Source: a virus. Taken from it: DNA of 30,180 nucleotides. Shown one piece after another: positions 6,773 to 26,538 of the stretch. Position 1 is the first letter of the stretch. Each line of letters starts with the position of its first letter. Below the pieces are notes generated by a model. That model was not told where the DNA came from. It did no database searches and was given only the letters and a program-made list of their open reading frames with translations. The stretch is taken from positions 1 through 30,180 of the IMG/VR virus record IMGVR_UViG_3300006100_000054; one strand, 5' to 3'. The position numbers and the translations under genes were made by a program.

Positions 6773-8219
6773 CGCTGCCGCTACAGTAATCAACAATCAA
6801 GGCGATATCTTGTATGCTGGACACGCAGAGCGTTACAGCAAAATTAAGAACGATCCTGATCTACATCGAGAAATGTTTTTTGATTTAGCACGTGGTCGTC
6901 ACATTGATCATATTGCTTACTATGAAACTCCTTGGAAGAAACAACTACGCCAGCTATATTCAGGACAGGGCGTAGAGTGGAACAAGTTAACTACCGGCCA
7001 GGTACTTAACAAACAGTTACAGGGATTCTTTACAGGTGTTCCTGTTACAACACATAATCATCACCTAAGCCATGCCGCAGCAGGATTTCAAACCAGCCCC
7101 TACGATCGAGCCACAGTAGTAGTTATTGACGCTATTGGTGAATTTGATACAGTAAGTATCTGGGGTGCTCACTACGACAATGGAGTTGCTCGGTATCACC
7201 GGCTATGGGGACAACGATATCCTCACAGTATCGGATTGTTTTATAGTGCTATGACCAAACGTATTGGACTTAAACCCATGGAAGATGAATATATCCTTAT
7301 GGGCATGAGTGCCTACGGTAGAGATTGGAAACAAAGCGACATATTAGAAAACGACTTTGTTGAAGAATTATACGATGTAAAATTTAAACAAAATTTACAT
7401 CTTGGAGTTGACAATACCTACATGAGTCACGTTAGCCAAGAAGATATTGCCATTGGTGCCCAGGCACTTGCAGAAAAATTAATTTATAATGTAATGGTTC
7501 GTGCCAAGTGTTTTGGCTGGAGCCGCAATTTGGTATACATGGGAGGGGTAGCACTTAACTGCCTTGCTAATAGAAACTTAGGAGACTATTTTGATAATAT
7601 ATGGATTATGCCTAATCCTGGCGATGCTGGTAGTAGCCTTGGCGCCGCCGCTTTGGTTTATGGCGGCCGTCTTAACTGGCGCGATGCTTATCTGGGCCAC
7701 TGCATTCCTGGTCCTTACCCTGTTAACTCTGCCCTGGATCATTTACTTAGTGATCGCATTGTGGGTGTTGCATCTGGTGCTGCCGAGTTTGGACCGAGAG
7801 CCTTAGGCAATCGTAGTTTGTTAGCAGACCCACGTGGCAATGATATAAAGGATAAAGTAAATGAAATCAAACGCAGACAAAAGTTTCGACCCTTTGCACC
7901 GGTTATTCTGGAGGAGTATGTTGATCAGTATTTTGATCTCCCTGATGGTTGGAGTGACAGTAGGTATATGCAAATCGTCGGTTATTGTAGGAATCCTGAG
8001 TTATTTCCTGCTATTACCCATGTTGATGGTACCAGTAGGATACAGACTGTACCAGCTGATGGATCAGGAATCAGAGAATTATTAGAAAAGTGGTATGTAA
8101 TGACTGGCTGTCCAATGTTATTGAACACCTCATTAAACATTCGTGGAGAGCCAATGGTTAACGATCGTGCAGATGCCGATCGCTTTGAAAAATTATATAA
8201 TGTAAAGGTGGTATCATGA
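6738..8219 (+). CDS. O-carbamoyltransferase, NodU/CmcH family
   Basis: The 493-residue protein starts with NILGISAGFHDAA, the standard opening of this family, which fixes the start despite the lack of a ribosome site. The N-terminal Kae1/ASKHA-like domain contains HNHHLSHAAAGF (residues about 104-115), whose histidines bind the metal, and the C-terminal YrdC-like domain carries EFGPRALGNRSLL near residue 350. Together they make carbamoyl-adenylate from carbamoyl phosphate and ATP and pass the carbamoyl group to a hydroxyl, usually of a sugar or antibiotic. Length and motifs are complete, so activity is likely. It overlaps the SGNH-like gene by 35 bases and the next gene by ATGA. The acceptor is presumably the product made by the neighbouring enzymes, which is inference. 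Confidence 0.93.
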   Translation: MNILGISAGFHDAAATVINNQGDILYAGHAERYSKIKNDPDLHREMFFDLARGRHIDHIAYYETPWKKQLRQLYSGQGVEWNKLTTGQVLNKQLQGFFTGVPVTTHNHHLSHAAAGFQTSPYDRATVVVIDAIGEFDTVSIWGAHYDNGVARYHRLWGQRYPHSIGLFYSAMTKRIGLKPMEDEYILMGMSAYGRDWKQSDILENDFVEELYDVKFKQNLHLGVDNTYMSHVSQEDIAIGAQALAEKLIYNVMVRAKCFGWSRNLVYMGGVALNCLANRNLGDYFDNIWIMPNPGDAGSSLGAAALVYGGRLNWRDAYLGHCIPGPYPVNSALDHLLSDRIVGVASGAAEFGPRALGNRSLLADPRGNDIKDKVNEIKRRQKFRPFAPVILEEYVDQYFDLPDGWSDSRYMQIVGYCRNPELFPAITHVDGTSRIQTVPADGSGIRELLEKWYVMTGCPMLLNTSLNIRGEPMVNDRADADRFEKLYNVKVVS

Positions 8220-9052
8220 CACAACGTATTTTAATTATGGGTTTACCTGGTGCAGGCAAAACAACATTAGCAGCAGCTCTTAAACGCTATTTAGAAGAAC
8301 ACGGGGATATTAGCTATGGCCGAGCATTAAATGAATTCATCGATCCCAAGGTCTTAGTAAACTGGTTCAACGCCGATGATATTCGTCGCAAATATAACGA
8401 CTGGGACTTCTCCAATGACGGTCGTATTCGTCAAAGTCTACGTATGTTTCAGTTTAGTATGGAAGCCGGTGGGGACTATGTTATCTGTGACTTTGTTGCT
8501 CCTTTAGTTGAAATGCGTAATAACTTCAAAGCCGACTGGACTATTTGGGTAGACACTATTCGCGAAGGACGTTATGCTGATACTAATGCCGCATTTGTTG
8601 AACCCGAAGTTTACGATTTCCGTGTCACAGAACAGGCAGCAGAAAAATGGGCAGAGTTTATTGGACAACACATAATTGACCGTCGCCGCCGCCCCGTATT
8701 CGACTGGCGGAAAGAAACTGTGCAGATGTTGGGACGTTGGCAACCATGGCATGATGGACACCGCGCACTATTTGAACGACTAATACAGCGTACAGGACAG
8801 GTAGTTATACAAATACGCGACTGTCAAGGCTGGCAAGGTAGTAATCCATTTGAAATAGAAAAGGTTAAATCATTTATTCGTCGCGATTTAGATCCTATCT
8901 ATCAGGGTCAGTATGAAATACAAGTAGTGCCTAACATTGTACATATTGGTTGGGGCCGTGGCGTAGGATATACAAGCGGAGAAGAAACATTTGATGACTC
9001 TGTAACCGACATCTCGGCTACAAAGATTCGTAAGGAACTGGGGCTTGGCTAA
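8216..9052 (+). CDS. APS-kinase-like / nucleotidyltransferase fusion
   Basis: Two domains are joined in 278 residues. Residues 1-165 form a P-loop kinase like adenylylsulfate kinase (CysC): GLPGAGKT at 9-16, then FNADDIRRKYNDWDFS in the position of the APS-kinase substrate loop, and ICDFVAP. Residues 170-278 form a HxGH nucleotidyltransferase: LGRWQPWHDGH near 172-182 and ISATKIRKEL near 266, the motif pair of NadR/NadM-type adenylyltransferases. AAGGTGG just before the ATG gives a good ribosome site. The first domain would phosphorylate APS or a related hydroxyl; the second would activate a phosphate with a nucleotide. Whether it makes PAPS for sulfation or a different nucleotide-activated compound cannot be told from sequence. 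It overlaps the DUF2061 gene downstream by 8 bases. Confidence 0.85.
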   Translation: MTQRILIMGLPGAGKTTLAAALKRYLEEHGDISYGRALNEFIDPKVLVNWFNADDIRRKYNDWDFSNDGRIRQSLRMFQFSMEAGGDYVICDFVAPLVEMRNNFKADWTIWVDTIREGRYADTNAAFVEPEVYDFRVTEQAAEKWAEFIGQHIIDRRRRPVFDWRKETVQMLGRWQPWHDGHRALFERLIQRTGQVVIQIRDCQGWQGSNPFEIEKVKSFIRRDLDPIYQGQYEIQVVPNIVHIGWGRGVGYTSGEETFDDSVTDISATKIRKELGLG

Positions 9053-9242
9053 AAGGATTTGGAAAACGTTGTCTTGGAGATTTATAGGATCCGGGTCAAC
9101 GTTTTTAATCAGTTATGTTGTAACAGGGCAGGCATTTGTTGCCACCAGTATAGCAGTAGCCCAAATTATTGCCAATACCGTTTTATATTATATGCACGAA
9201 ACTGCGTGGGACAAATTTTCACGTAGCTCAGACCAACATTGA
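9045..9242 (+). CDS. DUF2061 small membrane protein
   Basis: Sixty-five residues starting at a TTG codon, with AAGGAA eight bases upstream inside the end of the previous gene. The N-terminal KTLSWRFIGSGSTFLISY and the ending LYYMHETAWDKF are characteristic of DUF2061, a family of two-helix inner-membrane proteins. Two hydrophobic stretches (about residues 16-28 and 33-48) fit this. I recall the family occurring next to or fused with APS-kinase-like proteins, which agrees with the gene order here. Its biochemical role is not known. The last 55 bases are antisense to the end of the convergent glycosyltransferase-like gene. Confidence 0.83.
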   Translation: MAKRIWKTLSWRFIGSGSTFLISYVVTGQAFVATSIAVAQIIANTVLYYMHETAWDKFSRSSDQH

Positions 9243-10297
9243 TCTAAAAAGCCGTTACTGTAAAATCTACGATAATTATGATCTAAGGTAGATTGCATTT
9301 CTTTTAATAAGTCTTCAAGATCACGTAAGTCGTAACCACAAATTTTTTGAATTAGATTTGTAACAGCAGTCATACGTTCTACAGGATCTTCGATAGTGTC
9401 GTAACTTTCGTCCCACCAATAGTCAAATGTTTTAAATCCATAGCTACGTAGATATTTTAAACTACCAGCAGGGCCAACAACAATAAAAGGCATACGACTT
9501 ACGATAGGTTTAAACACTTTTTCTGTTAGATGATCTTTGCGATCCCAGTAGCAAGTTTCGGTAACAACATAGACAAAACTTTCCTGTGTTTCGGGAATAG
9601 CATTTAATGTAAAACTTTGATTGGGAATCGATTGATCTTTAAAGTCTATGCGAAGTTCGGGCAGTTGTTCTACAGTAGAGATTGTATCTTTGATTAGCGT
9701 TGCGTCCAATTGACTTGATTCTAAATGCTCAACATAATCGCCACCATCGGGACAAATTTTACTGTAGCTAACATGTCCGTAGTCTAATAAGTTACGTTTG
9801 GCTAATTCACTGACCAACAATGTACGGTAGACCCTATGTCCTCCGGTCAGTCGATTAAAACAAATATACTTTTTAGATAGTATTCGTTTACCGGGATCTA
9901 TCATCAATGGATGATATCGATAGCCGCGAAACCAATCTGCTGCTGCAAATGCGTGATGGAAGTAATAAGCAGTTGGCCAATTGTAACGTTGTTTTATCGT
10001 ATCCAAGGGCTCGCTATTTTGTTCGGTGGTGACTAATACAAATGGTGCCTGAAATTTTTCTTGAACATAATCAAGTAATCTATGATTATATTCTCCGTAG
10101 ATGGGCTCTTGGTCATAAAATATAAACATAGGGCTATTTTTAACATAACCAGAAATGTGTCCATAGTAGTCAGTTATGGTTTCTATATTTTCTGGTTGAG
10201 TTGCTCCAAAAGGTCGTAGGTAAAGTAGCCTGCGATATGTTACAATAGGTTGAAGTGCCAGAAATATATTTTCGTAGTGACTGTGAATATTATACAT
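9188..10297 (-). CDS. Glycosyltransferase-like protein
   Basis: The 369-residue protein has no signal peptide. The C-terminal half contains ETCYWDRKDHLTEKVFKPI followed by PFIVVGPAGSLKYLRSYGF (about residues 254-290), the pattern of the nucleotide-sugar-binding half of GT-B glycosyltransferases of the exostosin/fucosyltransferase kind (charged donor-site motif, then a 'too large to ignore, move to next' helix with E and K). The N-terminal half is less recognisable (FIFYDQEPIYGEYNH). It is the only minus-strand gene in this part of the window: it converges with the DUF2061 gene, overlapping its end by 55 bases, and diverges from the gene at 10296 with overlapping start codons. It probably adds a sugar in the surrounding pathway or to phage structures. 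The glycosyltransferase call is moderate. Confidence 0.68.
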   Translation of the reverse strand: MYNIHSHYENIFLALQPIVTYRRLLYLRPFGATQPENIETITDYYGHISGYVKNSPMFIFYDQEPIYGEYNHRLLDYVQEKFQAPFVLVTTEQNSEPLDTIKQRYNWPTAYYFHHAFAAADWFRGYRYHPLMIDPGKRILSKKYICFNRLTGGHRVYRTLLVSELAKRNLLDYGHVSYSKICPDGGDYVEHLESSQLDATLIKDTISTVEQLPELRIDFKDQSIPNQSFTLNAIPETQESFVYVVTETCYWDRKDHLTEKVFKPIVSRMPFIVVGPAGSLKYLRSYGFKTFDYWWDESYDTIEDPVERMTAVTNLIQKICGYDLRDLEDLLKEMQSTLDHNYRRFYSNGFLDQCWSELRENLSHAVSCI

Positions 10298-11951
10298 GTT
10301 TGATGTTTTTTATTGGGGACCAAAGCCCAACTTATTCGAATTTGAAAAACCTGCTCAGGATTTAGCAGATGCCGCACGGCAGAGCAAAACCAAGTTCTGC
10401 TGGTATATTTATGGGGGCAACGATTACACAGACTTTAGTTTCGACTTTATACCAGTGCCATGGGAAGAACAGTATATACATGTTTGGCCCGACCAGTGGC
10501 AAGACAATGGCAGAGTTTATTTGATTAACATTGATACGGTAGATCAAAAGCAATGGCATTATCGCAAGGATCAACGGGTACACACCGTTAATCAAGCTGA
10601 CATATACTATGTTGATCATCAAAACGGTACAATAGCACGTCATCAATTTGATGTGTTAAAAGAACACAATCCCAATATCCATAGAACACGTTTTATGGAC
10701 AACTACTTAGACACATTCCGCCGAATCATAAACACAGCTAAAACAGAATATGTTTGGATCATTAATAGTGTTTGTGATTATACTACATTTGATTTCAATT
10801 GGCACCCAAGCCAATGGCAAGAAGAAATGATTCATTGCTTTCCCAGCGATAGTCAACGACGCGGAGATACATTTTACATTCACGTAGAATCGTTTAGCCA
10901 ACAAATGATTGATTTGGAATTACTGGATTGGTTTAATGTTATCAACTATTCAGAAGATCAAAGAGTATTCCGATTTGAAACGCCCAGAAAAATATTCGAC
11001 ACAGATGATTTAGTAACCGAAATTCGCAACTATAAATTTGAAACTCCGTATGTACTATTTACTAACCAACCGGGCGTGAGTCTTTTGGCTACACCTTGTT
11101 TATGGTCACGAAAAGACCGCACGGTACAGCGTTTTACACGCTCGGGTGCTACTGTGTTAGTACCCCGAGATATTAAGGCTGATTTGAAGACGCAAATCTA
11201 CGATTATCCACACCTTGAGGTGCCTGAAACGCAGATTAACGAGTATTATCGCGACAAGAATTTTCCAGGGCTGGACATAGTATACATATCTAACGGTGAA
11301 CCAGACGAAGAACGATGGTATCGGCATTTATGCTATCAAAGCAATACTACCAATATAGAATGGGTACGTGGAGTCAATGGGCGAACAGCCGCTTATCAAG
11401 AAGCTGCACGTCGTAGTACTACACCTTGGTTCTTTGCGGTGTTTGCTAAATTAGAAGTTTTGGGTAGCGACTTTCCTTGGAACGAATGGCAACCAGACTA
11501 TTTCCAAGAACCAAAACACTATATCTTTAATAGCCGTAATCCGCTAAATAACTTAGAGTACGGTCACCAAGGCATTATTGCTTATAACAAAAGATTAGTA
11601 CTTGAAAATAATACTCCCGGCATTGACTTTACACTTTCGCAACCACACGAGTCAGTTCCTATATTGTCGGGAACAGCGCACTTCAACCAAAATCCTTGGA
11701 TGACTTGGCGCACAGCATTTCGAGAAGTGGTAAAATTAAAACATTTTATGGCCGAACAGCCAACAATAGAAACAGAACATAGACTTACAACATGGTGTAC
11801 AGTGGCCAATGGTGAGTTTGCTGATTACTGTTTAAAGGGAGCCAACGATGCTGTTGAGTACTATGCAGAAGTCGCTGGCAATTATGAACAATTAAAACTA
11901 AGTTTTGAATGGGCTTGGTTAAAAGAAAGATTTAATAAATGCAACCAATAA
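10296..11951 (+). CDS. Triple-repeat protein, possible glycosyltransferase-like
   Basis: A 551-residue protein made in part of three diverged copies of one segment, at about residues 22-82, 138-198 and 363-415. Each has a helix, a T-x-x-x-W strand, DF-x-F/W, then a tryptophan-rich turn (PVPWEEQYIHVWP; HPSQWQEEMIHCFP; WNEWQPDYFQEPKHYIF) and a strand. The region before the third copy (LDIVYISNGEPDEERWY, about 327-342) looks like the first strand of a GT-A nucleotide-sugar fold, so that copy may be part of a glycosyltransferase domain; this is inference. I recall similar proteins only as uncharacterised marine phage products. Its start codon overlaps the opposing start of the gene at 10297 and its end overlaps the halogenase by 13 bases, linking it with that enzyme. 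Confidence 0.8.
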   Translation: MFDVFYWGPKPNLFEFEKPAQDLADAARQSKTKFCWYIYGGNDYTDFSFDFIPVPWEEQYIHVWPDQWQDNGRVYLINIDTVDQKQWHYRKDQRVHTVNQADIYYVDHQNGTIARHQFDVLKEHNPNIHRTRFMDNYLDTFRRIINTAKTEYVWIINSVCDYTTFDFNWHPSQWQEEMIHCFPSDSQRRGDTFYIHVESFSQQMIDLELLDWFNVINYSEDQRVFRFETPRKIFDTDDLVTEIRNYKFETPYVLFTNQPGVSLLATPCLWSRKDRTVQRFTRSGATVLVPRDIKADLKTQIYDYPHLEVPETQINEYYRDKNFPGLDIVYISNGEPDEERWYRHLCYQSNTTNIEWVRGVNGRTAAYQEAARRSTTPWFFAVFAKLEVLGSDFPWNEWQPDYFQEPKHYIFNSRNPLNNLEYGHQGIIAYNKRLVLENNTPGIDFTLSQPHESVPILSGTAHFNQNPWMTWRTAFREVVKLKHFMAEQPTIETEHRLTTWCTVANGEFADYCLKGANDAVEYYAEVAGNYEQLKLSFEWAWLKERFNKCNQ

Positions 11952-13186
11952 AATCAATTATAGTAGTAGGCGGTGGCACAGCCGGATGGATGAGTGCTTG
12001 TTATATGGTCAAACAAGGTTTTGATGTAACATTGGTAGAAAGTCCTAACATACCTACCATCGGAGTAGGCGAAAGTTGCCTGCCCGGGTTAGGTATCTTT
12101 TGCGACGCATTAGGACTCAAAGAGGAAGAGTGGATGCCGGAAGCTAATGCTCGCTATAAAATAGGCATCTTCCATCATAACTGGCTACGCAAAGAAGACA
12201 CTCTATGGAAGCATTGGTTCTGTTATGATCGCAACGATTGCAACGGACAATACTACTTAGAGTCCGGAATACTACCTCCGGTCAAAGAAGGCAAATATGC
12301 TTTTCATATTGATGCTCTTGCTTTTGGTCAAATGCTTAAACGTCGTGTAGCAGATCCTGCTGGAGTTAAACACGTGCAGGCACACATCTTAGATATACAG
12401 CAACACGAAAATGGCTATGTAAAAGGCCTGTTATTAGATAACGGTACTACACTATCTGCAGACTTTTACATTGATTGTTCGGGTCCTGCACGTTTGTTTA
12501 GTAAGAAAGTTGGCATCGAGTTCAGCAAGTACGGTGACATACTTAATGATCGTGCTGTAGTTTGCCCACAACCATTAGAGCCCGGCGAGCAACCTAAGTA
12601 TACAATCACCTATGCTGGAACAGCTGGCTGGATCTGGGACACAGGATTAGCACATCGTCGTGGTTGCGGATATACTTACAGTAGTCAGTTTATCACAGAC
12701 GAACAAGCACGGGCCGAGTACTTAACATACTTCCCCAAAACAGATCAGAGCAAGATGCGTATTATTAACTATGACAGCACTTATTCGCATAATCCATTGG
12801 AAAAGAATGTATTGGCTGTGGGATTAGCATCAGGCTTTATGGAACCTCTGGAAGCAACCAGTATCTATTTGGTACAGTATTATTTAGAAACCTTTGCTAA
12901 GTTTGTTAACACAGGACGTAACCCAAAAGTCTACAACAAGGCAACACTTATTCTAACCAAACAGTTATACGACTTTGTCTTGACTAACTATACACTAACA
13001 CAACGCGATGATACAGAACACTGGCGCTATTTTAAAGATTTAGAATCACGTTTGAATACTCGGGATTTGGTATTAGAATGGGCCGCACATGATGATGTGG
13101 GCGAGTGGGCTGTTACCAGAATGTTCTCACCATTTAACTGGTGGAGCAAGGCAACGCATTTTGAATTATACGATCAACGTAAATAA
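11939..13186 (+). CDS. Flavin-dependent halogenase, tryptophan-halogenase family
   Basis: The 415-residue protein begins with VVGGGTAGWMSA (FAD dinucleotide-binding site, residues 9-20) and TIGVGES, then RYKIGIF with Lys74 at the place of the catalytic lysine that in PrnA forms or guides hypohalous acid. The family motif WxWxIP is represented by WIWDTG at 231-236, so the usual Ile-Pro pair is missing. GLASGFMEPLEATS (295-308) is the classic C-terminal motif of the family. Such enzymes use reduced FAD, oxygen and halide to halogenate aromatic substrates. A viral member (VirX1, from a cyanophage) has been described, so a phage halogenase has precedent. No flavin reductase is seen nearby. It overlaps the preceding gene by 13 bases and converges with the aminotransferase gene, sharing 13 bases at their ends. 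Confidence 0.92.
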   Translation: MQPIKSIIVVGGGTAGWMSACYMVKQGFDVTLVESPNIPTIGVGESCLPGLGIFCDALGLKEEEWMPEANARYKIGIFHHNWLRKEDTLWKHWFCYDRNDCNGQYYLESGILPPVKEGKYAFHIDALAFGQMLKRRVADPAGVKHVQAHILDIQQHENGYVKGLLLDNGTTLSADFYIDCSGPARLFSKKVGIEFSKYGDILNDRAVVCPQPLEPGEQPKYTITYAGTAGWIWDTGLAHRRGCGYTYSSQFITDEQARAEYLTYFPKTDQSKMRIINYDSTYSHNPLEKNVLAVGLASGFMEPLEATSIYLVQYYLETFAKFVNTGRNPKVYNKATLILTKQLYDFVLTNYTLTQRDDTEHWRYFKDLESRLNTRDLVLEWAAHDDVGEWAVTRMFSPFNWWSKATHFELYDQRK

Positions 13187-14304
13187 TTTTCAATTACTTC
13201 TATAACCCGAGTAACTTCGCTGTCAGTTAGCTCGGGATAGATAGGCAAGCTCAAGCACTCGCGACTAAATGCTGTTGATTCTCTAAATAGCTCGCGAGCA
13301 TAATCAATAAAATCATAGCCCACTGGCAATTCAAATAAAGGACGATCATAATGGAATTTACTTTCGATTCCATTGGCCGCTAAGGCTTCTTTCAATCCGT
13401 GACGTTCGCTGGTTCTGATTACAAACTTAGACCAGGCACTTTCAACGTCTTCTCTGGGTAGCACTACATCAACATACTCACTTAATTCGACAGTATAGTA
13501 GTTGGCAATTTTACGTCTACGTTCTTGCCACCGATCAAAGTGTTCTAACTTGATCAACATGGCAGCACAATCAGCTTCCGACATTTTACTATTAGTTCCA
13601 AATGCCTGATGATGCATCTTCTTACCGTTATCGCGTAGGTCCATTAGGTCTTCATAGATAGCAAAACTATCTGTAAGTACCATACCACCCGAGCCATAGT
13701 TGTTTAAGTTCTTAGTAGGATCAAAACTCAGCACACTAACATCACCTAAACTACCCGAAGGATGTCCTTGGTAAGTGGCTCCAAAACTTTGAGCAGCGTC
13801 TTCGATAACAAATATATCATCACTAAAGAATTCTGTTTGTAGTCTTAGTTTATTATAATCAACACAATGCCCAAATAGATTAGCATACATAACAGCATTA
13901 ACACCTGCTCCAGTTAAGGCCATATCCATAGTTTCTAAATCTATTAGGGCCGCTGGATCTGTGTCACAAAACACAGGAGTATGGCCAGCATACAATACTG
14001 AGTTAAGTGTAGCGGCAAAACTTAGAGTGGGAATTAATATACGAGAGTCAGCTGGTATACAAGTTTGTTGAGCAAAGATCAGACCTTGCGTACAACTACC
14101 AACTGCCACAGCAAATTTACGATTACATCGACGTGCTATTTCTTCTTCAAATGCCCGAGTAGCTGGTCCATCTAATACCTGTCCCGTGAGGTATACTTCG
14201 TCAATAGCACCCATGAGTTCTTCACGGAGTTCTTTGTATTGACGTTCTACACCGAAGAAGGGAATTTTAATTTTGCTTGCCAATATGGACTTTCTGTAAA
14301 CCAC
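13174..14304 (-). CDS. DegT/DnrJ/EryC1-type sugar aminotransferase
   Basis: A 376-residue PLP-dependent aminotransferase of the nucleotide-sugar type. IPFFGVERQYKEL near residue 14 is the usual start of the family, EDAAQSFGA (168-176) holds the Asp that binds the PLP pyridine nitrogen, and SFDPTKNLNNYGSGG carries the PLP lysine at 198. These enzymes convert a keto sugar nucleotide to an amino sugar. The longest frame begins at a GTG (14304) without a ribosome site; a TTG at 14283 preceded by AGAAAG, giving MASKIKIPFF, fits the family start better but is not proven. Either start overlaps the upstream epimerase gene. With that epimerase it forms a plausible two-gene amino-sugar unit. The gene ends 13 bases inside the convergent halogenase gene. 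Confidence 0.92.
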   Translation of the reverse strand: MVYRKSILASKIKIPFFGVERQYKELREELMGAIDEVYLTGQVLDGPATRAFEEEIARRCNRKFAVAVGSCTQGLIFAQQTCIPADSRILIPTLSFAATLNSVLYAGHTPVFCDTDPAALIDLETMDMALTGAGVNAVMYANLFGHCVDYNKLRLQTEFFSDDIFVIEDAAQSFGATYQGHPSGSLGDVSVLSFDPTKNLNNYGSGGMVLTDSFAIYEDLMDLRDNGKKMHHQAFGTNSKMSEADCAAMLIKLEHFDRWQERRRKIANYYTVELSEYVDVVLPREDVESAWSKFVIRTSERHGLKEALAANGIESKFHYDRPLFELPVGYDFIDYARELFRESTAFSRECLSLPIYPELTDSEVTRVIEVIENYLR

Positions 14305-15233
14305 TGGTGATAACGTACAAAACCTTCTTCTACATCAACTTCAGGTGCAAAACCAAAGTCACGCCGTGCCGCATCGATGTTTAAGGCGCCACGCGAAGGA
14401 AAGTCTGCATCTTTATCACGACATTCAATTGAACCACGTCCTGCAATTTTAACAGCAAGTTCTGCGGCCTGTAGTAAACTGGTACTGTGGCTTTTGGTAA
14501 TGTTATATGTATTATTAACAGCCGCATCGCTTAGTGTAGCTTGTACAATACCACGTGCAGCATCTTCTACATAGGTAAAATCTAACGTTTCACCTGCTCC
14601 GTTGACCTTAAGTGTTTGACCTCTGAGAGCACTAAGCATAAATTTACTAACCACACGATCTTCAACATCATACTCTCCGTACACAGCAGAGGGACGGATA
14701 ATAATATGATCAAAGCATTTACGACGAGTATAGTCTTTAACAAGGTGTTCTCCCATTAACTTCATAATGCCGTATTGTCCTTGCGGACGGCAATTATAGT
14801 CTTCTGTAACTTGATCGTCAAAGTCGCCATAGACCATACTACTACTTATATAAACAAACTTGGGAATATTGTATCGTTTGGTCATTTCTAATAAATTAAC
14901 CAATCCAGTTCCCATTACCTCGGCGCCCCAGACAGGATTGCCACTGACTACTTTTTGTCTTGGAAAACTTGCTAAGTGTATTACAGCATCTGCGTTGAGA
15001 GAAAAACTTAAAAAGAATTCTTCAACTCGTTTAATTTCTCTTAGATCCACATGATGTGTATTTGCTCGCATACGATCTCTGCGAGCCCGATACAGGTATT
15101 CTAATTCATCTGGTGGAATAAATCCGTAGTTGGTCACGCTATCTAAAATAAAGCACTCGTGTCCCTGTGCTTCTAACTGACGTACTACATTATGGCCAAT
15201 AAAGCCGGCCCCGCCCGTTACTAAAAACTTCAT
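14247..15233 (-). CDS. NAD-dependent sugar-nucleotide epimerase/dehydratase
   Basis: The 328-residue protein is an extended short-chain dehydrogenase. FLVTGGAGFIGHN (residues 3-15) is the NAD-binding GxxGxxG loop; the catalytic triad is visible as ISSS (130-133), Tyr154 and Lys158 in QYGIMK; IRPSAVYGEYD follows as in UDP-glucose 4-epimerase relatives. It likely acts on a nucleotide-linked sugar, feeding the aminotransferase downstream. A TAGGAG sequence overlapping the thymidylate synthase stop sits seven bases before the ATG, a strong ribosome site that fixes the start. It overlaps the aminotransferase by 37 to 58 bases depending on that gene's start. Whether it epimerises, reduces or dehydrates cannot be settled from sequence alone. 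Confidence 0.92.
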   Translation of the reverse strand: MKFLVTGGAGFIGHNVVRQLEAQGHECFILDSVTNYGFIPPDELEYLYRARRDRMRANTHHVDLREIKRVEEFFLSFSLNADAVIHLASFPRQKVVSGNPVWGAEVMGTGLVNLLEMTKRYNIPKFVYISSSMVYGDFDDQVTEDYNCRPQGQYGIMKLMGEHLVKDYTRRKCFDHIIIRPSAVYGEYDVEDRVVSKFMLSALRGQTLKVNGAGETLDFTYVEDAARGIVQATLSDAAVNNTYNITKSHSTSLLQAAELAVKIAGRGSIECRDKDADFPSRGALNIDAARRDFGFAPEVDVEEGFVRYHQWFTESPYWQAKLKFPSSV

Positions 15234-19318: not shown

Positions 19319-19416
19319 TCTTCACCTATTAGTTTAAGAATATGAATAATCAAAACGCATAGCACAAAAGCAATAGCTATTATACAAAGTGCTTCAGCGA
19401 TCCAATTTTCAATCAT
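19315..19416 (-). CDS. 33-residue membrane protein
   Basis: A micro-gene fitting exactly between its neighbours: its ATG overlaps the stop of the VWA metallopeptidase (ATGA) and its own stop overlaps the start of the next gene (ATGA). The product is one hydrophobic helix, with AEALCIIAIAFVLCVLIIHI after MIENWI, then a short charged tail KLIGEE. Such single-span peptides in phages can be holin-like or host-membrane effectors; nothing in the sequence decides. The precise double overlap is the main evidence that it is real. Confidence 0.72.
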   Translation of the reverse strand: MIENWIAEALCIIAIAFVLCVLIIHILKLIGEE

Positions 19417-20645
19417 TTCTTGGCCTCTTCCTCATAGTGTGCCCAGATACCCCACGGTGGCTCACAGTTAGGATTACCTTTGATAATCCATACAGTATCA
19501 CAGTAGTTCTCTTCGCCCCACTCACCAAACGGCATACCGTCAGTAAACATGATAAACTTCTTAGGCTCAATGCCATTCTCTTTCATGAATTCCCAGTTAG
19601 CCATAAAGTCTGTACCGCCGCCACCTTGTGGTTGGTATTCGGCAATGTCACGCAAGTTATCTGAGTTAAAATCTTCTGGATTGTAAACTTCAGTGTCAAA
19701 CGACCAAACTTTGATATTGTATTCTTCGTAGGCTTCCATGATACCACGGATTTCGCTTAAGAAGCATTTGATATCATCACCACCAATACTGCCCGATGTA
19801 TCAATAGCAATACATACATCAATCTGTTCGCCTGGCTTGGCAGCAGGTAGTATAGCATCCATATGCCAAGATTTACGGCCGGGACGAGCAAAGGTATAGT
19901 CGTTTTTAATGGTACTTTGGATTTGTTGCTCCAACAGTTCCTTCCAACCAATCTGTGGCTCTGTTAAATCTTTAATAAGACGTTTAACACCACTTGGCAA
20001 GTTACCTGCACCTGCGGCCTGTGCGGCTTGCAGTACAGCTTCTTTGATCTCATCACGGATAGCTTTCTTCTCAGCGTCGCTGAGTTTGGGCTTTTTACCG
20101 CCGTTACCTTCTTCATCGCCGTCACCATCTAAATGCTCATCTAACAGCATCTTAGCGAGATCGTCCATGTTAATTTTGTTGGCATTTTTCATTAAGTCGT
20201 CGTAGACTTCTTCTGCTGACATGCCTCTGTACTTAGAATCGTACAATACACCACATACTGTGATCTTTTCGCCAATCCGTTGCTCAATTAAATCCGCATT
20301 AACGCAGAAGTCGTCGGCAATGTTCCAAATCTTAGGATCACGTTCATTACGTCGACCCATATGGTCATAAACCGCATGAAGAACTTCGTGCCCTACAAGA
20401 AACTCTACCTGCTTCAAGGGCATGTTATTAACGAACTCGGAATTATAATAAAAACGACGTCCGTCTGTTGCGGCAGTAGGACACCAATCATCGGCATTGA
20501 CCAAATTCATACGTGTAGCAAGGTTACCAAAAAATGGTGCTTTAAGTAGCAAACCAATACGTGCTGTGATCAGTTTTTCACGAGCCGCGGTATCTACTTT
20601 AGGGTCTGTCTTTGGGCGTTCTTTAGTTAATTCTGCTGTAGTCAT
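19413..20645 (-). CDS. VWA-like domain metallopeptidase (MoxR partner)
   Basis: A 410-residue protein of the DUF2201 type, a zincin-like domain joined to a von Willebrand A-like domain. HEVLHAVYDH at residues 86-95 is the zinc site, followed by NIADDFCVNADLI (108-120), the second family motif. AIDTSGSIGG (280-289) is the MIDAS metal site of the C-terminal VWA fold. A linker around 172-186 is very acidic and glycine-rich. An upstream ATG at 20666 is in frame, but it sits at the predicted transcription start, and AAGGAA nine bases before the ATG at 20645 supports the shorter form. Next to it, upstream, is a MoxR AAA ATPase; MoxR/VWA pairs act as chaperone-like remodelling machines. It has its own promoter. 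Confidence 0.9.
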   Translation of the reverse strand: MTTAELTKERPKTDPKVDTAAREKLITARIGLLLKAPFFGNLATRMNLVNADDWCPTAATDGRRFYYNSEFVNNMPLKQVEFLVGHEVLHAVYDHMGRRNERDPKIWNIADDFCVNADLIEQRIGEKITVCGVLYDSKYRGMSAEEVYDDLMKNANKINMDDLAKMLLDEHLDGDGDEEGNGGKKPKLSDAEKKAIRDEIKEAVLQAAQAAGAGNLPSGVKRLIKDLTEPQIGWKELLEQQIQSTIKNDYTFARPGRKSWHMDAILPAAKPGEQIDVCIAIDTSGSIGGDDIKCFLSEIRGIMEAYEEYNIKVWSFDTEVYNPEDFNSDNLRDIAEYQPQGGGGTDFMANWEFMKENGIEPKKFIMFTDGMPFGEWGEENYCDTVWIIKGNPNCEPPWGIWAHYEEEAKK

Positions 20646-20672
20646 AGTCACGGATTCCTTATTCATACTTAT

Positions 20673-20783: not shown

Positions 20784-21884
20784 TTACTTACCAGACGCCG
20801 CGATAATGTACTTACCGAAACGTGTATGGAACTCGTCAAACGATTTCATCTTACCAGGTACCATTGGTAGATTATAAGTGGTTAACGCTACACGAGCACC
20901 CATAACAACCAACTCTGTGGAAAAATTCTCCATCATAAACTTGAGAAAATTATCCGCCTGGTCATGCCATTGTTGGAGTTTATCTTTGCCCAACTTGGCA
21001 AATTGTTCCTGTAATTCGTAGCACATGGCAACAGTCAACGAGTACATAGCTGATACTTCTTTGACCTTGAGATCTTTAACCTTGCCTTGCAAAATGTCTG
21101 CTGGGTTAGGCATCTGTCCAGCAACCTTACGGTGTGCCATAAACTTAACAGCCAAACCTTCACCTACTGTACCTGCGATCAAGTCAGTCAACTCTGCGTC
21201 TGTAGCATCTTCATCTTCCAAGAACTGTGACACGAATGTCCAAGAGCGTGGAGTAGCGAATGCACGGCTTGCGGATTTAGGATCAAAGTCCATTAAGTCT
21301 TGTTTGGCAAAACCAATGTAACCTACCACGTCCTTATGGATGTTATTATTAACTGCCCATGAAAACCATGAGTCAAAGTCCTTACGCATTTCCAAGTGAA
21401 CGAAACGGTTAGCAAGTGGAGTAGGCATACGATATGTAACACCTTTGTCTGACTCACGATTACCTGCGGCTACGATTACCACATTGTCTGGCAATTTGTA
21501 TTTGCCTACACGACGATTCAAAATCAGCTGATAACCAGCGGCCTGTACAGCTGGAGCCGCAGAGTTCATTTCATCCAAGAATAAAACTACCACTGGATAC
21601 TGACTGGCAAGCTCTTCATCTGGCAAGTCGATTGGGGGAGCCCAATCCATAACTTCTTTGTTCTTATTAAAGAACGGAATACCGCGAATATCTGTCGGCT
21701 CCATTTGACCTAAACGCAAGTCAATCATATGGCCGCCAAGTTCTTCAGTTAAACTTGCAACGATTTCGCTCTTACCAATTCCGGGAGGACCCCATAGGAA
21801 TACTGGACGTTTATTTTTGAAACAACGTAAGATACGGCTACGGGCTTCTGTAGGGCTAACACTACGATTCTCAGTCACGGACAT
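20784..21884 (-). CDS. MoxR-type AAA+ ATPase
   Basis: A 366-residue AAA+ protein with GPPGIGKS (Walker A, residues 32-39), VVLFLDEMNSA (Walker B, about 99-109), an AAGNRES sensor-1 segment and the TPLANRFVHLEM motif that includes the arginine finger region. This is the MoxR branch, which works with VWA-domain partners to remodel or load metals into protein complexes. The partner is encoded directly downstream (20645 to 19413), but each gene has its own promoter and a possible terminator separates them. AAAAGGAG is six bases before the ATG. In phage the target is unknown; an effect on host or virion assembly complexes is inference. Confidence 0.92.
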   Translation of the reverse strand: MSVTENRSVSPTEARSRILRCFKNKRPVFLWGPPGIGKSEIVASLTEELGGHMIDLRLGQMEPTDIRGIPFFNKNKEVMDWAPPIDLPDEELASQYPVVVLFLDEMNSAAPAVQAAGYQLILNRRVGKYKLPDNVVIVAAGNRESDKGVTYRMPTPLANRFVHLEMRKDFDSWFSWAVNNNIHKDVVGYIGFAKQDLMDFDPKSASRAFATPRSWTFVSQFLEDEDATDAELTDLIAGTVGEGLAVKFMAHRKVAGQMPNPADILQGKVKDLKVKEVSAMYSLTVAMCYELQEQFAKLGKDKLQQWHDQADNFLKFMMENFSTELVVMGARVALTTYNLPMVPGKMKSFDEFHTRFGKYIIAASGK

Positions 21885-22311: not shown

Positions 22312-22340
22312 ATTATAACAAACCTTGAATTTTGGGTCAA
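22312..22340 (-). promoter_or_regulatory. Promoter of the gene at 22282 (TTGACC class)
   Basis: Minus-strand TTGACC (22335-22340), exactly 17 bases, TATAAT (22312-22317), then AATAGTAT. This is close to the ideal bacterial sigma70 promoter. The spacer shares CAAAATTCA with the promoter at 22819. Confidence 0.85.
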
Positions 22341-22345
22341 CCAAA

Positions 22346-22789
22346 TTAGTTTGCTTCGTATGCTGGACGCAATACATTTTCCATCCACCATTGACGATGT
22401 GCAGCGGCCTGTTTAGGGCTCATTGTAATGTCAGCTTCTTTAGGCTCTGGCTTTGATTTTTTAATTTTAAGATTAGATGTCTTTACTGTGGTAAACAGTT
22501 TTTTTTGCACCGGTTTCTTAGCAGGACGAGCAAAAGGATTTTCGTCCTTGATCAAACTGGTAAGCAGGCCTGTAGCCTCAGGTGTATTATGATTAGGATA
22601 TGAAATGGCTAAGTTAGTGAGTACATACTTAGCGGCATCATTCTTAGTCATTGGCGTAGGCAAGATTGCCATTGAAATGTCTGTATCACCAAGTTTAGCC
22701 AACTGTTGGGCACGGCTAATTTCGTTAGCAGTACGGAATTTTAAAACACCATTCATACGGCTAAAACCTGCAAATTGAACTGTCGTCAT
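22346..22789 (-). CDS. Conserved phage protein of unknown function
   Basis: A 147-residue protein starting MTTVQFAGFSRMNGVLKF, then SRAQQLAKLGDTDISMAIL, a pattern I recall in unannotated proteins of large myoviruses. The second half is a basic linker (KKPVQKKLF, KIKKSKPEPK) and a tail with AAAHRQWWMENVLRPAYEAN. No enzyme motif. It is a single-gene unit with its own promoter and AAGGAG seven bases before the ATG. The N-terminal part may be a small globular domain tethered by a flexible basic linker; DNA binding is a possibility only. Confidence 0.82.
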   Translation of the reverse strand: MTTVQFAGFSRMNGVLKFRTANEISRAQQLAKLGDTDISMAILPTPMTKNDAAKYVLTNLAISYPNHNTPEATGLLTSLIKDENPFARPAKKPVQKKLFTTVKTSNLKIKKSKPEPKEADITMSPKQAAAHRQWWMENVLRPAYEAN

Positions 22790-22818
22790 TGCTACTCCTT
22801 ATTAGTTACTATACAAGT

Positions 22819-22847
22819 ATTATAGCAAATAATGAATTTTGGGTCAA
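22819..22847 (-). promoter_or_regulatory. Promoter of the gene at 22789 (TTGACC class)
   Basis: Minus-strand TTGACC (22842-22847), 17-base spacer, TATAAT (22819-22824), then ACTTGTAT. The stop codon (TGA, 22844-22846) of the 50-residue gene upstream is inside the -35 hexamer. Confidence 0.87.
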
Positions 22848-22996
22848 CCGAAATCTGCACTCTTTTTGTGCTTGGGCTGGCGTTTATAGCGGGTTTTGAG
22901 CTCCACTTTTTTAGCCTTAAAGGGACTGTTGCTCAAAAACAACACCTTATGAGCACGAGTTTTTTGTGGGATTTTTACAACGATTTTATCCATCAT
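22844..22996 (-). CDS. 50-residue basic protein
   Basis: A small gene filling the space between two promoters. It starts with a double ATG (22996 and 22993) and ends with TGA within the -35 of the next promoter. The product is strongly basic: MDKIVVKIPQKTRAHKVLF, then SPFKAKKVELKTRYKRQPKH and KKSADFG. I recall similar short proteins with an FKAK/FRAK-x-V...Y-R...KHK-S pattern in T4-like marine phages. The -10 element ends six bases before the first ATG, so the message probably has no leader or almost none. The antisense frame is also open but has no such support. DNA or RNA binding is plausible from charge alone. Confidence 0.75.
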   Translation of the reverse strand: MMDKIVVKIPQKTRAHKVLFLSNSPFKAKKVELKTRYKRQPKHKKSADFG

Positions 22997-23002
22997 ACTG
23001 TA

Positions 23003-23031
23003 ATTATACAATAAGATGAATTATGGGTCAA
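23003..23031 (-). promoter_or_regulatory. Promoter of the 50-residue gene (TTGACC class)
   Basis: Minus-strand TTGACC (23026-23031), 17-base spacer, TATAAT (23003-23008), then TACAGTAT. The stop codon of the RelE-like gene upstream (TGA, 23028-23030) lies inside the -35 hexamer, the same arrangement as at 22844. Confidence 0.85.
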
Positions 23032-23474
23032 CAGCGGGTTAATTGCTTGGCCAGGTTTTTTTGCTTGTTGATATTACCGGGTGTACCAGTTCCGCTTTCT
23101 TGATGTGAAAAAATACCGTAGAGTTGAACTACAGTAGGGTTTTTTCCTTCTATGGTATAGAATACGCTGAGATCTCTTGTTAGGTGTGCGTGACGTAATT
23201 TTGGAACAGCACGAGCCAAAGGGCCAGCATTGATAAAAGGTGTATCACTACTACCAAATTGTTGCCCTGGGTTTGCAGTTTTGGCCTGTGTAAATTCTTT
23301 AAATTTATCCGACAGTCCGGGATAGTTTTTAGTCTTTTCTGCAAAGGTACGATTAAACAAATCACAGGCTTGAAATTTTATACTGGTAGATACAGTAGCC
23401 TCGGTTAAGGTTTCTGTCCAGGGCCCTTGATGTGCCTGTAGAATAAGAGATTCAAATATATCAGTAAACTTCAT
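23028..23474 (-). CDS. RelE/YafQ-like protein
   Basis: The frame extends to 23579, but the first 35 codons overlap the upstream gene; the ATG at 23474 (MKFTDIFESLIL, 148 residues) lies four bases after the upstream stop and is the natural start. The C-terminal part resembles the RelE/YafQ toxin fold: RAVPKLRHAHLTRDLSVFYT, then VVQLYGIFSHQESGTG and a final KNLAKQL. The D-L-S-x-x-Y and L-Y-G-x-F-x-H pattern is what I recall from unannotated phage relatives. The N-terminal 60 residues are helical. No partner antitoxin is obvious. It closes an operon with an ABC-ATPase/GNAT fusion and a nuclease-like protein. Whether it cuts mRNA is unproven. Confidence 0.75.
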   Translation of the reverse strand: MKFTDIFESLILQAHQGPWTETLTEATVSTSIKFQACDLFNRTFAEKTKNYPGLSDKFKEFTQAKTANPGQQFGSSDTPFINAGPLARAVPKLRHAHLTRDLSVFYTIEGKNPTVVQLYGIFSHQESGTGTPGNINKQKNLAKQLTRC

Positions 23475-23478
23475 ACTA

Positions 23479-24543
23479 CTATTTAGTAGTACCAATATAC
23501 TCGTGGCTGTAGCAAAGTCGTCCTGCATCACGTGCGGTAGTGGTTCCACCATAGCCGGGCATTTTACGAGTAGTTCCATCTTTGTTCAAGTAACTGCCCA
23601 GGCGTGATTTTAAGTTAGTACTGGTAGGACGCCATAAGGGAGAATTCTGCCGATGTTCGCCAAAACTTGGATGGGCAGTTTTGCTAAAATATCTTAGCCC
23701 CCGGCTAACATATATTTCAGCAATGGCATCGCTAAATTTAGTACCTATGCCCATTCCTTGAAATTCAGGAAGAACTACAGTACGATGACCACGCCAGTAA
23801 CTGTGAATATCTCTGTTAGTTGAATGTATCGCGGCATGAAACGCCACTGGTTTGTCACCTATTAGGCCTACATAGTAATGAGCTGATTTACTTATAGCAG
23901 TATCTAAATAGTGATACTTACCGAAATATCGCCAATAGTCCTGACTTGTGCTTCGGATGGTGAGTGTAAGTTCTGGTCTTGTCCCCAGTCGAAGAAGTGA
24001 CCTCCGATTATCTAATACCTGTAGGTCGGTATCGTACACCCAGTCTGGATCTAACCAGTCTATAATATCTCTGTGACAACTTGCAATGTATAGCGGCTGA
24101 CCTGTGTTGGCACGATCATAATATTTTCGCATACTTAAAGCAAGACTTTTAGCAGTATCGCGATCCACTACTGATGTAAATTCATCTATTATATTGATAC
24201 CTTCATCTAAGGCTTTGGCCATTTCAAAGCGATGAAACTCACCATTGCTTAATGTTGCAGGTGAGCGGAACCATGCAGGAATAGTACGCAAGCCACATGC
24301 CAGTAACAGTTCTTCACCACGTTCAGGCGAACTAAAGTTATCAATAACGGTTACATCCTTATTAATTGTATCAACGAGATTTTTATCAACGGAATCCACT
24401 GTACGCAATATTGTACTCTTGCCTGATCCCGATGTACCTACGATTAACACGATCCCTTCGGTAGGCAGGTTGGGAATCGTAACGTTGGGCTCTTTATAGT
24501 CCTTGATATCGTACTTCTTTTTAATTTCGTCTAAGTAACTCAT
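23479..24543 (-). CDS. ABC-type ATPase fused to GNAT acetyltransferase
   Basis: The 354-residue protein joins two enzymes. Residues 25-185 are a compact ABC ATPase with GTSGSGKST (Walker A, 36-44), LSNGE (signature, 98-102), INIIDEF (Walker B, 116-122) and CHRD (H-loop region near 156-159); no transmembrane part exists, so it is not a transporter subunit by itself. Residues 195-330 are a GNAT domain, with VVLPEFQGMGIGTKF (about 256-270) as the acetyl-CoA-binding motif and FGKYHYLD before it. I recall similar fusions in phages, all of unknown function. It overlaps the nuclease-like gene upstream by ATGA and is followed after four bases by the RelE-like gene, so the three are co-expressed. Confidence 0.88.
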   Translation of the reverse strand: MSYLDEIKKKYDIKDYKEPNVTIPNLPTEGIVLIVGTSGSGKSTILRTVDSVDKNLVDTINKDVTVIDNFSSPERGEELLLACGLRTIPAWFRSPATLSNGEFHRFEMAKALDEGINIIDEFTSVVDRDTAKSLALSMRKYYDRANTGQPLYIASCHRDIIDWLDPDWVYDTDLQVLDNRRSLLRLGTRPELTLTIRSTSQDYWRYFGKYHYLDTAISKSAHYYVGLIGDKPVAFHAAIHSTNRDIHSYWRGHRTVVLPEFQGMGIGTKFSDAIAEIYVSRGLRYFSKTAHPSFGEHRQNSPLWRPTSTNLKSRLGSYLNKDGTTRKMPGYGGTTTARDAGRLCYSHEYIGTTK

Positions 24544-25262
24544 TTAATTGAATCTGCCATTGTTTTAAAAATTGCTTTAAGCTCTTCTGTAGTTTTACAA
24601 TACTTTGTCTGCCACTCTTTATAAAGTTCTGGCTCGGTAGTAGCATTAAAGTTCCAGCCAATTTGGTCTTGACGTTTTTTATCTAAGTTTTCTTGTAGGA
24701 TCTGTAGACGTGCTTGATTATCACCTTTGATCTTGCCCGAGCCCTGACTTGAGCCTAATGCTGTATAGAATTTATCATTACCATGTTTATCTTTTTTAAA
24801 GGGTGTAACTGCACGGGAGTGTATTTCTTTGATTAATTCGTCTTTGGTAAGGAAAAAATATTCAACAGTTTTTTCGTCCCAGGCCTTCATAAAAAGATAT
24901 CCGGCTAAATCTTCATAAAACCTTAGTTGGCCGCCACCGATAGCATCACCTGACGAAAACGAAACTTTAAGTTCAATATTATTTTTGCCTGGTACTAATT
25001 TGTCTCCGGCTACTAAGTCACCAAGATCTAACCCCTCGTCATCATTCTTTTTATCGTAACTTAGAGAGTCTTTTTTCTTAGTACCTGTTTGAAAAGCAAC
25101 CCAGCCCTCAATAAATTTTTCAGCTGATTTTTGCTTCATAGCATGATAGTATTCATACATTTCTTCGTATGGGGTATCATAGTAGGAATCAATAGATTCT
25201 AAGAGACTACGAATTTCTTCGGTCTCTTTTCTGTTTGCTTTAATGCGGTCAAGTAATGACAT
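24540..25262 (-). CDS. Possible PD-(D/E)XK-type nuclease
   Basis: A 240-residue protein without a certain family. Residues 94-112 contain an N-I-E-L-K-V strand and IGGGQLRFYED, which fit the E-x-K strand and the following Gln/helix of restriction-type PD-(D/E)XK nucleases; Asp82 or Asp87 would be the first acidic residue, with Glu97 and Lys99. A strand pair with YFFLTKDEL follows, as in many of these folds. The N-terminal 60 residues are helical, and the C-terminal part is basic (QENLDKKRQDQIGW). AGGAAA precedes the ATG by five bases, and its stop overlaps the ABC-GNAT start. The nuclease call rests on motif spacing only; it could equally be an unrelated structural or regulatory protein. Confidence 0.6.
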   Translation of the reverse strand: MSLLDRIKANRKETEEIRSLLESIDSYYDTPYEEMYEYYHAMKQKSAEKFIEGWVAFQTGTKKKDSLSYDKKNDDEGLDLGDLVAGDKLVPGKNNIELKVSFSSGDAIGGGQLRFYEDLAGYLFMKAWDEKTVEYFFLTKDELIKEIHSRAVTPFKKDKHGNDKFYTALGSSQGSGKIKGDNQARLQILQENLDKKRQDQIGWNFNATTEPELYKEWQTKYCKTTEELKAIFKTMADSIK

Positions 25263-25273
25263 TTATTTTCCTA

Positions 25274-25810
25274 TTAAATTTCTATTGTACTACCTTTACC
25301 TTTAGAATAAAAGATATGATCACCAATTTGTTTAATACGATTATTGGGATCTGCCCAATTTGGTGCCTTGATATAGTCTGCATGATAAAGCAAACTCTTT
25401 TCTAAACCCTTGACACGATAGCCTTTAAGTGCATTTAGAGCAATAGTATGACTACGAGCATATAGATCAGGATCGGGCTTGTGCAGTCGTTTTAACAAAG
25501 TCCACGAAAATTGATATGGAGCATATACTACAGAACAAACTGTATTACCCCAACGGCCAGCACGAATTCGATTAAGGGTTACGGTAGCCACTGCATATTT
25601 ACCAATGTCAGTTTGATTGCCAGCTTCATAATAAATGTTTTTAGTTAAACATTCAACATCGTGTTTGGTATAGTTAATACCGTGATTAGTTTTAATAATT
25701 ATTTCTTCAATTTGATCAACTCGGTTATTTAAAGTTTCAGTTTTAAAATCCAGCCGAATCAACAATAAAGTAATAATTACACCAAATACAATTAATGTCC
25801 GATCTTTCAC
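25274..25810 (-). CDS. Cell-wall hydrolase, SleB type, with N-terminal membrane anchor
   Basis: The C-terminal 125 residues form a Hydrolase_2/SleB domain: CLTKNIYYEAGNQTDIGKYA with the candidate catalytic Glu62, VTLNRIRAGRWGNTVCSVVY, FSW, and HADYIKAPNW with His143. It cleaves peptidoglycan glycan strands in the known family. The N-terminus is a short hydrophobic helix (LIVFGVIITLLLIRL, residues 6-20) followed by a helical linker, which fits a signal-anchor (SAR-like) endolysin. The frame is open to an ATG at 25852, but that lies upstream of the predicted -10; GAGGT eight bases before the GTG at 25810 makes this the better start (178 residues). It heads the operon with the nuclease-like gene. 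Confidence 0.86.
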   Translation of the reverse strand: MKDRTLIVFGVIITLLLIRLDFKTETLNNRVDQIEEIIIKTNHGINYTKHDVECLTKNIYYEAGNQTDIGKYAVATVTLNRIRAGRWGNTVCSVVYAPYQFSWTLLKRLHKPDPDLYARSHTIALNALKGYRVKGLEKSLLYHADYIKAPNWADPNNRIKQIGDHIFYSKGKGSTIEI

Positions 25811-25842
25811 AATCAATACCTCTAAGGTTACAATGATAATAC

Positions 25843-25872
25843 ATTGTAGCATAAATGGTATTTGTTGGTCTG
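25843..25872 (-). promoter_or_regulatory. Promoter of the SleB gene (CAGACC class)
   Basis: Minus-strand CAGACC (25867-25872), an 18-base spacer and TACAAT (25843-25848). The -10 is weaker than at the other promoters, but the upstream box matches that of the VWA gene. The predicted start of transcription lies about 25 bases before the chosen GTG. Confidence 0.6.
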
Positions 25873-25895: not shown

Positions 25896-26270
25896 CTATT
25901 GATTCGCTTCTAAATTATTTAGGTAAGTAGGCAAATCACCACCATGAAGCTGTAGCATAACAGCATCTTGTTCGCTCATGACCATTAGGTTAGACAAGGT
26001 TTTAATAAAGTAAGGTTGGCCAAGCAATCTTTCAAGCTGAAGTAATTGTTTGGGTAATATTTTTTCTTGTAGTTTAACTTCGTGTAGTTTAAGATCGGTG
26101 TGTCGTTCAATCCAGGCATAGCCAACTTTGGTTAATCTAAGACTGTTACTGTTAATTGAATTATACCACCATTGATGTCCGACACCTGGCCAGTCGGCAC
26201 CGGGACTGACCATGTCTATTAGGTCTTGGGTCCACTGGCTTTGAGTTTTACGGTTTGTAGATAGTGTCAC
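25896..26270 (-). CDS. Conserved phage protein of unknown function
   Basis: A 124-residue protein whose middle reads VGHQWWYNSINSNSLRLTK, then VGYAWIERH, a pattern (S-L-R-L-T-x-x-G-x-x-x-I/F) that I recall in unannotated proteins of T4-like cyanophages. The C-terminal half is helical (EKILPKQLLQLERLLGQPYF). No catalytic motif. It overlaps the upstream gene by 23 bases and is the last gene of that string before the SleB promoter. Confidence 0.8.
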   Translation of the reverse strand: MTLSTNRKTQSQWTQDLIDMVSPGADWPGVGHQWWYNSINSNSLRLTKVGYAWIERHTDLKLHEVKLQEKILPKQLLQLERLLGQPYFIKTLSNLMVMSEQDAVMLQLHGGDLPTYLNNLEANQ

Positions 26271-26538
26271 CTTGCTTGAGTAAGACTACGGTGAATTTGT
26301 CAGTCTTGAATAAGGTGTTGAGTTTCTTGGCCAAGTTGATAGCATGTCCGGAATTACTAAAGCTGCATTTTTTGTACTTTGGTCCTGGATAGGCCACAAG
26401 CATATTTGCAGTCTTAAGATTAATAGGTTGGTTGTCATAGAAGACTGCCCAGATGCCTTCGCTGGATAATACTTGGTCACTTTTGTAACTTGACTTGTTT
26501 ACGTGTTCGAGAAGCACGGTAGGTTTTGGTCTACTCAT
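26248..26538 (-). CDS. Conserved phage protein of unknown function
   Basis: Ninety-six residues beginning MSRPKPTVLLEHVNKSSYK and containing GIWAVFYDNQPINLKTAN, YPGPKYKKCSF and SGHAINLAKKLNTLFKTDKF. I recall very similar proteins in T4-like marine phages, all unannotated. Basic, no membrane segment. The gap upstream holds GATAAATA, a possible late promoter, so this and the next gene may form a separate late unit. Its end overlaps the following gene by 23 bases. Confidence 0.83.
   Translation of the reverse strand: MSRPKPTVLLEHVNKSSYKSDQVLSSEGIWAVFYDNQPINLKTANMLVAYPGPKYKKCSFSNSGHAINLAKKLNTLFKTDKFTVVLLKQGDTIYKP

Follow-up and report, generated by a model that had tools for sequence, protein, structure and literature searches.

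On the minus strand of a large phage, a gene for a nuclease-like protein is followed directly by one that joins a soluble ABC ATPase and a GNAT acetyltransferase in a single protein, and then by a small third gene, raising the question whether the three form one conflict system or are separate pieces of cargo. The window analysed here is a virus record of 30,180 bases, a fragment of the phage genome, in which the three genes lie on the minus strand. The three open reading frames listed in an earlier, sequence-only reading were verified at their coordinates. They lie in a slot between two conserved genes, delimited by the following features:

26248..26538, minus strand: conserved gene flanking the slot, which served as an independent anchor (its pattern occurs in 599 stretches of viral contigs)
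25274-25852: cell-wall hydrolase gene (Pfam Hydrolase_2), 11 nt upstream of gene 1
24540..25262, minus strand: gene 1, PD-(D/E)XK restriction-endonuclease-like protein of 240 aa (AlphaFold2 model, PDB matches and methyltransferase pairing in relatives)
24540..24543, minus strand: ATGA junction in which the stop of gene 1 (R) overlaps the start of gene 2; a methyltransferase gene occupies the junction in relatives
23479..24543, minus strand: gene 2, soluble ABC ATPase with a C-terminal GNAT domain, 354 aa (Pfam, phrog_11143, family alignment)
23028..23474, minus strand: gene 3, 148-aa protein with no family match, starting 4 nt past the gene 2 stop
20784..21884, minus strand: AAA (MoxR-like) ATPase gene, a conserved gene that bounds the slot at its opposite end

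Gene order and the third gene

The three genes had been read as co-translated. Genes 1 and 2 overlap and a gap of 4 nt precedes gene 3, but the hydrolase gene stops only 11 nt short of gene 1, and the three are thus part of a longer series of genes in one direction. Because tight spacing is general in the window, spacing by itself is no evidence for a three-gene unit. Genes 1-3 occur together solely in the window and in one near-identical contig, L002 (99.94% identity over 8685 bases, with five mismatches and the same R/ABC-GNAT junction), and the three genes as a unit were therefore given up; rare co-occurrence was the outcome that the earlier reading had itself named as refuting its proposal.

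Gene 3 has an open reading frame of 183 codons whose start sits inside gene 2, an unlikely start; position 23474 is plausible and gives the 148-residue protein. No match was found in Pfam, PHROGs, PADLOC, NCBIfam or the PDB sequences, with RelE, ParE and YafQ profiles included, so the RelE/YafQ-like end once assigned to this protein finds no sequence support in any library searched. Beyond the near-identical contig its sole relative (L232:8767-9183, 54% identity) lies in an unrelated context with no ABC-GNAT gene near it. Gene 3 is probably unlinked cargo.

These results bear on the proposal that the locus is a three-gene, Septu- or Gabija-like or toxin-type competition system with gene 3 as a RelE-like toxin. 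As in Septu (PtuAB) and Gabija (GajAB), a soluble P-loop ATPase adjoins a nuclease, and in PADLOC gene 2 gives a weak match to PtuA (E 7.5e-4). This match is confined to residues 24-72, and that to GajA to residues 26-51 (E 0.08), covering little beyond the P-loop around Walker A; genes 1-3 gave no match to PtuB or GajB, and gene 2, unlike the ATPases of those systems, carries a GNAT domain. Membership in Septu or Gabija was rejected on the P-loop-only matches and the lack of PtuB and GajB matches. With gene 3 showing no detectable RelE similarity and the trio not conserved, a competition system of this kind is very improbable.

From the end of gene 3 onward, three near-identical promoter-like elements are found on the minus strand (22312-22340, 22819-22847 and 23003-23031), all within 720 bases. 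Each consists of TTGACCCANAATTCA, a 17-nt spacer and TATAAT, is close to consensus, and has no expected occurrence in shuffled sequence. The -35 part recurs once, in contig L024, just ahead of a relative of the gene at 22346-22789. The repeats (22312-23031) suggest separate transcription of the genes downstream of gene 3, and may be marks of short, separately transcribed cargo genes there. Beside the MoxR-like ATPase gene, the gene at 19413-20666 (minus strand) carries the PHROGs name HNH endonuclease; its protein has a DTSGS motif of the VWA type as well as an HEVLH motif, and the name looks doubtful.

Gene 1 and its methyltransferase partner

Searches of Pfam, PHROGs, PADLOC, NCBIfam and the PDB sequences gave no convincing family match for gene 1. 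Its fold was examined in an AlphaFold2 model (pLDDT 81, pTM 0.81). The best PDB matches of the model are NhoI (Z 6.9), PvuII (6.7) and the N-terminal domain of Eco15I (6.6), followed by Hjc resolvases (5.4) and EcoRV (3.8). As the top matches are all PD-(D/E)XK nucleases, the nuclease fold is well supported by the model, though the Z scores are moderate, and the suspected nuclease is upheld. Relatives of gene 1, found in few contigs, share 30-81% identity and have in common D79, G81, D82, E97, K99 and a GGGQ stretch (109-112). The presumed catalytic residues, including the E97/K99 pair whose conservation had been proposed as a check, fall in two segments:

25017..25028, minus strand: residues 79-82 (D-L-G-D), presumed acidic part of the PD-(D/E)XK site; D79, G81 and D82 invariant in six relatives
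24966..24974, minus strand: residues 97-99 (E-L-K), presumed catalytic E-x-K; E97 and K99 invariant in six relatives

The reading frame is intact and the pairwise dN/dS is about 0.06 with no excess on the window side, a measure in which dS is saturated and recent loss of a partner methyltransferase (M) would be invisible.

In all other contigs with a member of the gene 1 family (L083/L047, L005, L084, L085, L014, L362 and L363, the last a near copy of L014), it is overlapped by the gene that follows, which encodes a methyltransferase. In this partner of 374-409 residues, motif IV (SNPAF) lies towards the N-terminal end, and both GEVFTP and FIDSMCGDGQFL lie towards the C-terminal end; the protein matches Pfam N6_Mtase at the cut-off. 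Judged from these motifs, the gene 1 relatives and their beta-order DNA methyltransferases are type II-like restriction-modification (R-M) pairs, and the order R, M, ABC-GNAT is seen in L083, L005 and L014. The methyltransferase gene is absent from the 30,180 bases of the window, including the junction of genes 1 and 2. Gene 1 is therefore better described as the R member of a type II-like R-M pair, with M missing at the locus. It resembles type II systems of the PvuII/NhoI-like PD-(D/E)XK class in its nuclease fold and in the methyltransferase pairing of its relatives, and differs from them in the lack of a methyltransferase at the window locus and of a sequence-level match to solved endonucleases.

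The window is thus a natural case of R plus ABC-GNAT without M, and gene 2 could have taken over the protecting role of the methyltransferase, giving a phage-borne, acyl-based and ATP-dependent R-M pair with a type II-like endonuclease. The comparative data on such replacement are mixed. When loci were anchored on another nuclease of these modules, c35, the gene was followed by ABC-GNAT in 3 of 13 cases, by a methyltransferase in 2 and by neither in 8; a general rule that ABC-GNAT replaces the methyltransferase was rejected on these counts. We consider a takeover of M's role at this locus rather unlikely.

The ABC-GNAT family of gene 2

Gene 2 matches Pfam ABC_tran and Acetyltransf_1, both above the cut-offs, and phrog_11143 over its full length (E 3e-82), which confirms a soluble ABC ATPase joined to an acetyltransferase. 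An alignment of 18 family members (30-83% identity) shows conservation of Walker A, the signature, Walker B with the catalytic Glu, the H-loop and, in the GNAT domain, the QGxGxG motif. All of them are intact in the window, the Walker residues that were to be checked among them:

24415..24438, minus strand: Walker A, residues 36-43 (GTSGSGKS); G36, S38, G39, G41 and K42 invariant in 18 relatives
24181..24186, minus strand: Walker B Asp and catalytic Glu (D120, E121), invariant in the family alignment
23743..23769, minus strand: GNAT motif A, residues 259-267 (PEFQGMGIG); P259, G263 and G265 invariant, G267 nearly so

The family is present in 81 of 50,697 phage records, in 259 confirmed stretches of viral contigs and in 479 stretches of bacterial and archaeal genome contigs. 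It is already known, contrary to the impression that the locus matched no described system. According to an earlier prediction cited in a survey of jumbo phages (PMC7824862), which names phage pT24, a GNAT domain that is coupled with an ABC ATPase would give DNA bases an acyl modification of uncharacterised kind; Tenacibaculum phage pT24 indeed carries a gene 2 homologue. With this family, PHROG 11143, gene 2 shares full-length homology and both active sites. Gene 2 is an ABC-GNAT family member in an unusual neighbourhood: in the window's clade the gene follows exchangeable R-M or nuclease genes, whereas a ParB-like gene precedes it at most genome loci.

In bacterial and archaeal genome loci, a ParB-like gene lies directly upstream of ABC-GNAT in 50 of 77 cases by a family HMM, and the upstream gene matches Pfam ParB_N in 17 of 62; its PDB relatives are Noc and Spo0J. 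The order ParB-like, ABC-GNAT is common there (L255-L334), often with the terminase large subunit next. It is also annotated in phages LE4, Jace, Sisko and Pmp13, and is indicated by alignment in EastWest and P335. In the window the upstream gene is an R gene; the ParB-like gene is a common neighbour and no defining feature of the family. A formyltransferase gene lies downstream in three of the L255-L334 loci and likewise in Pseudomonas phage Komp_PAO1_1.

The position next to terminase is among the observations that would fit a different target. Gene 2 might acylate a host or phage protein or RNA, its ABC domain recruiting it to a nucleoprotein complex in packaging, replication or translation, with the nuclease as an incidental neighbour. 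GNAT enzymes have a broad range of substrates, and the same survey cites phage members that modify the RNA polymerase of the host. The partners of the family point instead to DNA, as they are ParB-like proteins, nucleases, DNA methyltransferases and Mom. A protein or RNA target is unlikely in our estimate.

A Mom-family gene (PF25680) lies directly downstream of ABC-GNAT in L052, L053, L055, L056 and L058. Gene 2 itself is no recognisable Mom: PF25680 is not among the Pfam matches listed for it up to E 1, and hhalign finds no profile similarity between its GNAT domain and these Mom-family neighbours, a weak negative as the Mom alignment is shallow. Mom homology of the GNAT domain was set aside on this result. 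The likeness to phage Mom and to the jumbo-phage Mom-REase fusions described in PMC7824862 is that a restriction-like nuclease neighbours an acyltransferase of the GNAT superfamily, which is the reasoning put forward for Mom-REase fusions; the difference is that gene 2 has an ABC ATPase fused to it instead. By analogy, the locus may work like a phage-borne R-M pair or a Mom-REase pair.

Restriction modules upstream of the fusion and possible function

In 47 of 51 close relatives of gene 2 (71-100% identity, near-duplicates counted), the three preceding genes include some of the R-M, nuclease or DAQHR/c0 kind. Eight of these loci have R with M, six a large helicase/methyltransferase gene, seven an R-like gene without M (including L002, the near twin of the window), 23 a DAQHR/c0 module and three HNH alone; the labels are partly from motifs read by eye, with Pfam support for the methyltransferases and HNH in several representatives. 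The pattern holds in 28 of 31 loci in the home slot and in 19 of 20 in other contexts, and the spacing is 10 nt or less in 49 of 50. Within the slot, restriction-type genes occur in 18 of 22 loci with ABC-GNAT and 8 of 30 without it (p about 1e-4, near-duplicates and near-identical matches removed first), a contrast overstated to some degree because the queries came mostly from ABC-GNAT loci. In the window's phage clade ABC-GNAT is thus the part that stays constant, while the restriction or nuclease modules upstream of it are exchangeable, and its pairing with a nuclease is supported as a class. The suspected conflict unit survives in this form, as a gene 1/gene 2 pair in a phage conflict island, and not as a three-gene system.

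Two kinds of upstream module stand apart from the gene 1 family. The large helicase/methyltransferase genes (L016, L018, L030, L031, L042 and L050) have an Eco57I-type methylase domain and resemble type ISP-like R-M. The c0/c1 module is a two-gene unit found in many large-phage contigs (L165-L242, for example L165:3453-5555); its proteins are one of 350-410 residues with a DAQHR motif (DndB/ParB-like) and one of 185 residues with invariant FEH..P, N and H residues. An AlphaFold2 model of c0 (pLDDT 93) has no strong PDB match, with a weak one to a C-terminal part of ScoMcrA (Z 4.4, 114 residues aligned), and an assignment of c0 as an HNH nuclease was dropped for that reason. The c0/c1 module is possibly an undescribed restriction-like system.

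The trio region is probably a slice of cargo from a large phage's hypervariable island of restriction and conflict genes, where ABC-GNAT would modify or protect nucleic acid. We tentatively favour, at a level somewhat short of probable, a phage module for self-marking and cutting, with gene 2 as its constant marking part and the nuclease as its swapped cutting part. Judging by ABC ATPases and GNAT enzymes in general and by the published prediction, the ABC domains of gene 2 would bind phage DNA under ATP, and the GNAT domain would move an acyl group from acyl-CoA onto a nucleic-acid amine, most likely of a base. The acyl mark would shield the replicating phage genome from host restriction, perhaps also from the co-encoded nuclease, and the gene 1 nuclease would cut unprotected DNA of the host or a competitor. 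We favour such a module because gene 1 is conserved and has a nuclease fold with an invariant D/E-x-K, because both active sites of gene 2 are conserved, and because M directly follows R in every other contig of the gene 1 family. The upstream modules in 47 of 51 loci, the enrichment within the slot, the published acyl prediction and the Mom-family neighbours in L052-L058 argue in the same direction. Against it stand the missing Mom profile similarity, the mixed c35 loci, and the ParB-like partner near terminase in genomes and other phages, which fits packaging or another DNA role as well.

Also against it are the loci collected from other anchors, where ABC-GNAT is rare. With the slot gene at 26248..26538 as anchor, only 4 of 78 new loci had it, so that it is no core gene of the slot; with c0 as anchor, which nearly always adjoins the DAQHR protein, it lay near about 8 of 78. 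Together with the c35 loci, these low shares indicate that the restriction modules need no ABC-GNAT, although the ABC-GNAT of this clade almost always has a module. The main rival to the self-marking module is accordingly that of independent cargo in a busy slot: gene 1 would be an orphan R after loss of M, or with M elsewhere in the phage, gene 2 a separate anti-restriction or other gene, and the two would share a slot because conflict genes accumulate there, with no coupling between them. Many conflict genes occur in this hypervariable slot with no ABC-GNAT beside them, the c0/DAQHR and c35 modules mostly lack it, and M may lie beyond the window, which is a fragment. The association nevertheless persists in 19 of 20 loci outside the home slot and is enriched inside it. 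Uncoupled cargo is a serious possibility that we judge somewhat improbable.

Pairing R with ABC-GNAT might enable a phage to mark its genome and to cleave DNA other than its own. ABC-GNAT fusions are found by the hundred in phages and bacterial genomes, their chemistry is so far only predicted, and swappable restriction modules next to a conserved endonuclease without its methylase turn this into a concrete question for chemistry, namely whether gene 2 protects DNA against gene 1. If it does, the pair would represent a new class of DNA self-marking; if it does not, the partner data would still narrow the search for the substrate.

In the other half of the window, positions 74-15233 hold metabolic genes, relatives of a Nol-like carbamoyltransferase, a tryptophan halogenase, a radical SAM protein, an aminotransferase and a nucleotide-sugar epimerase.
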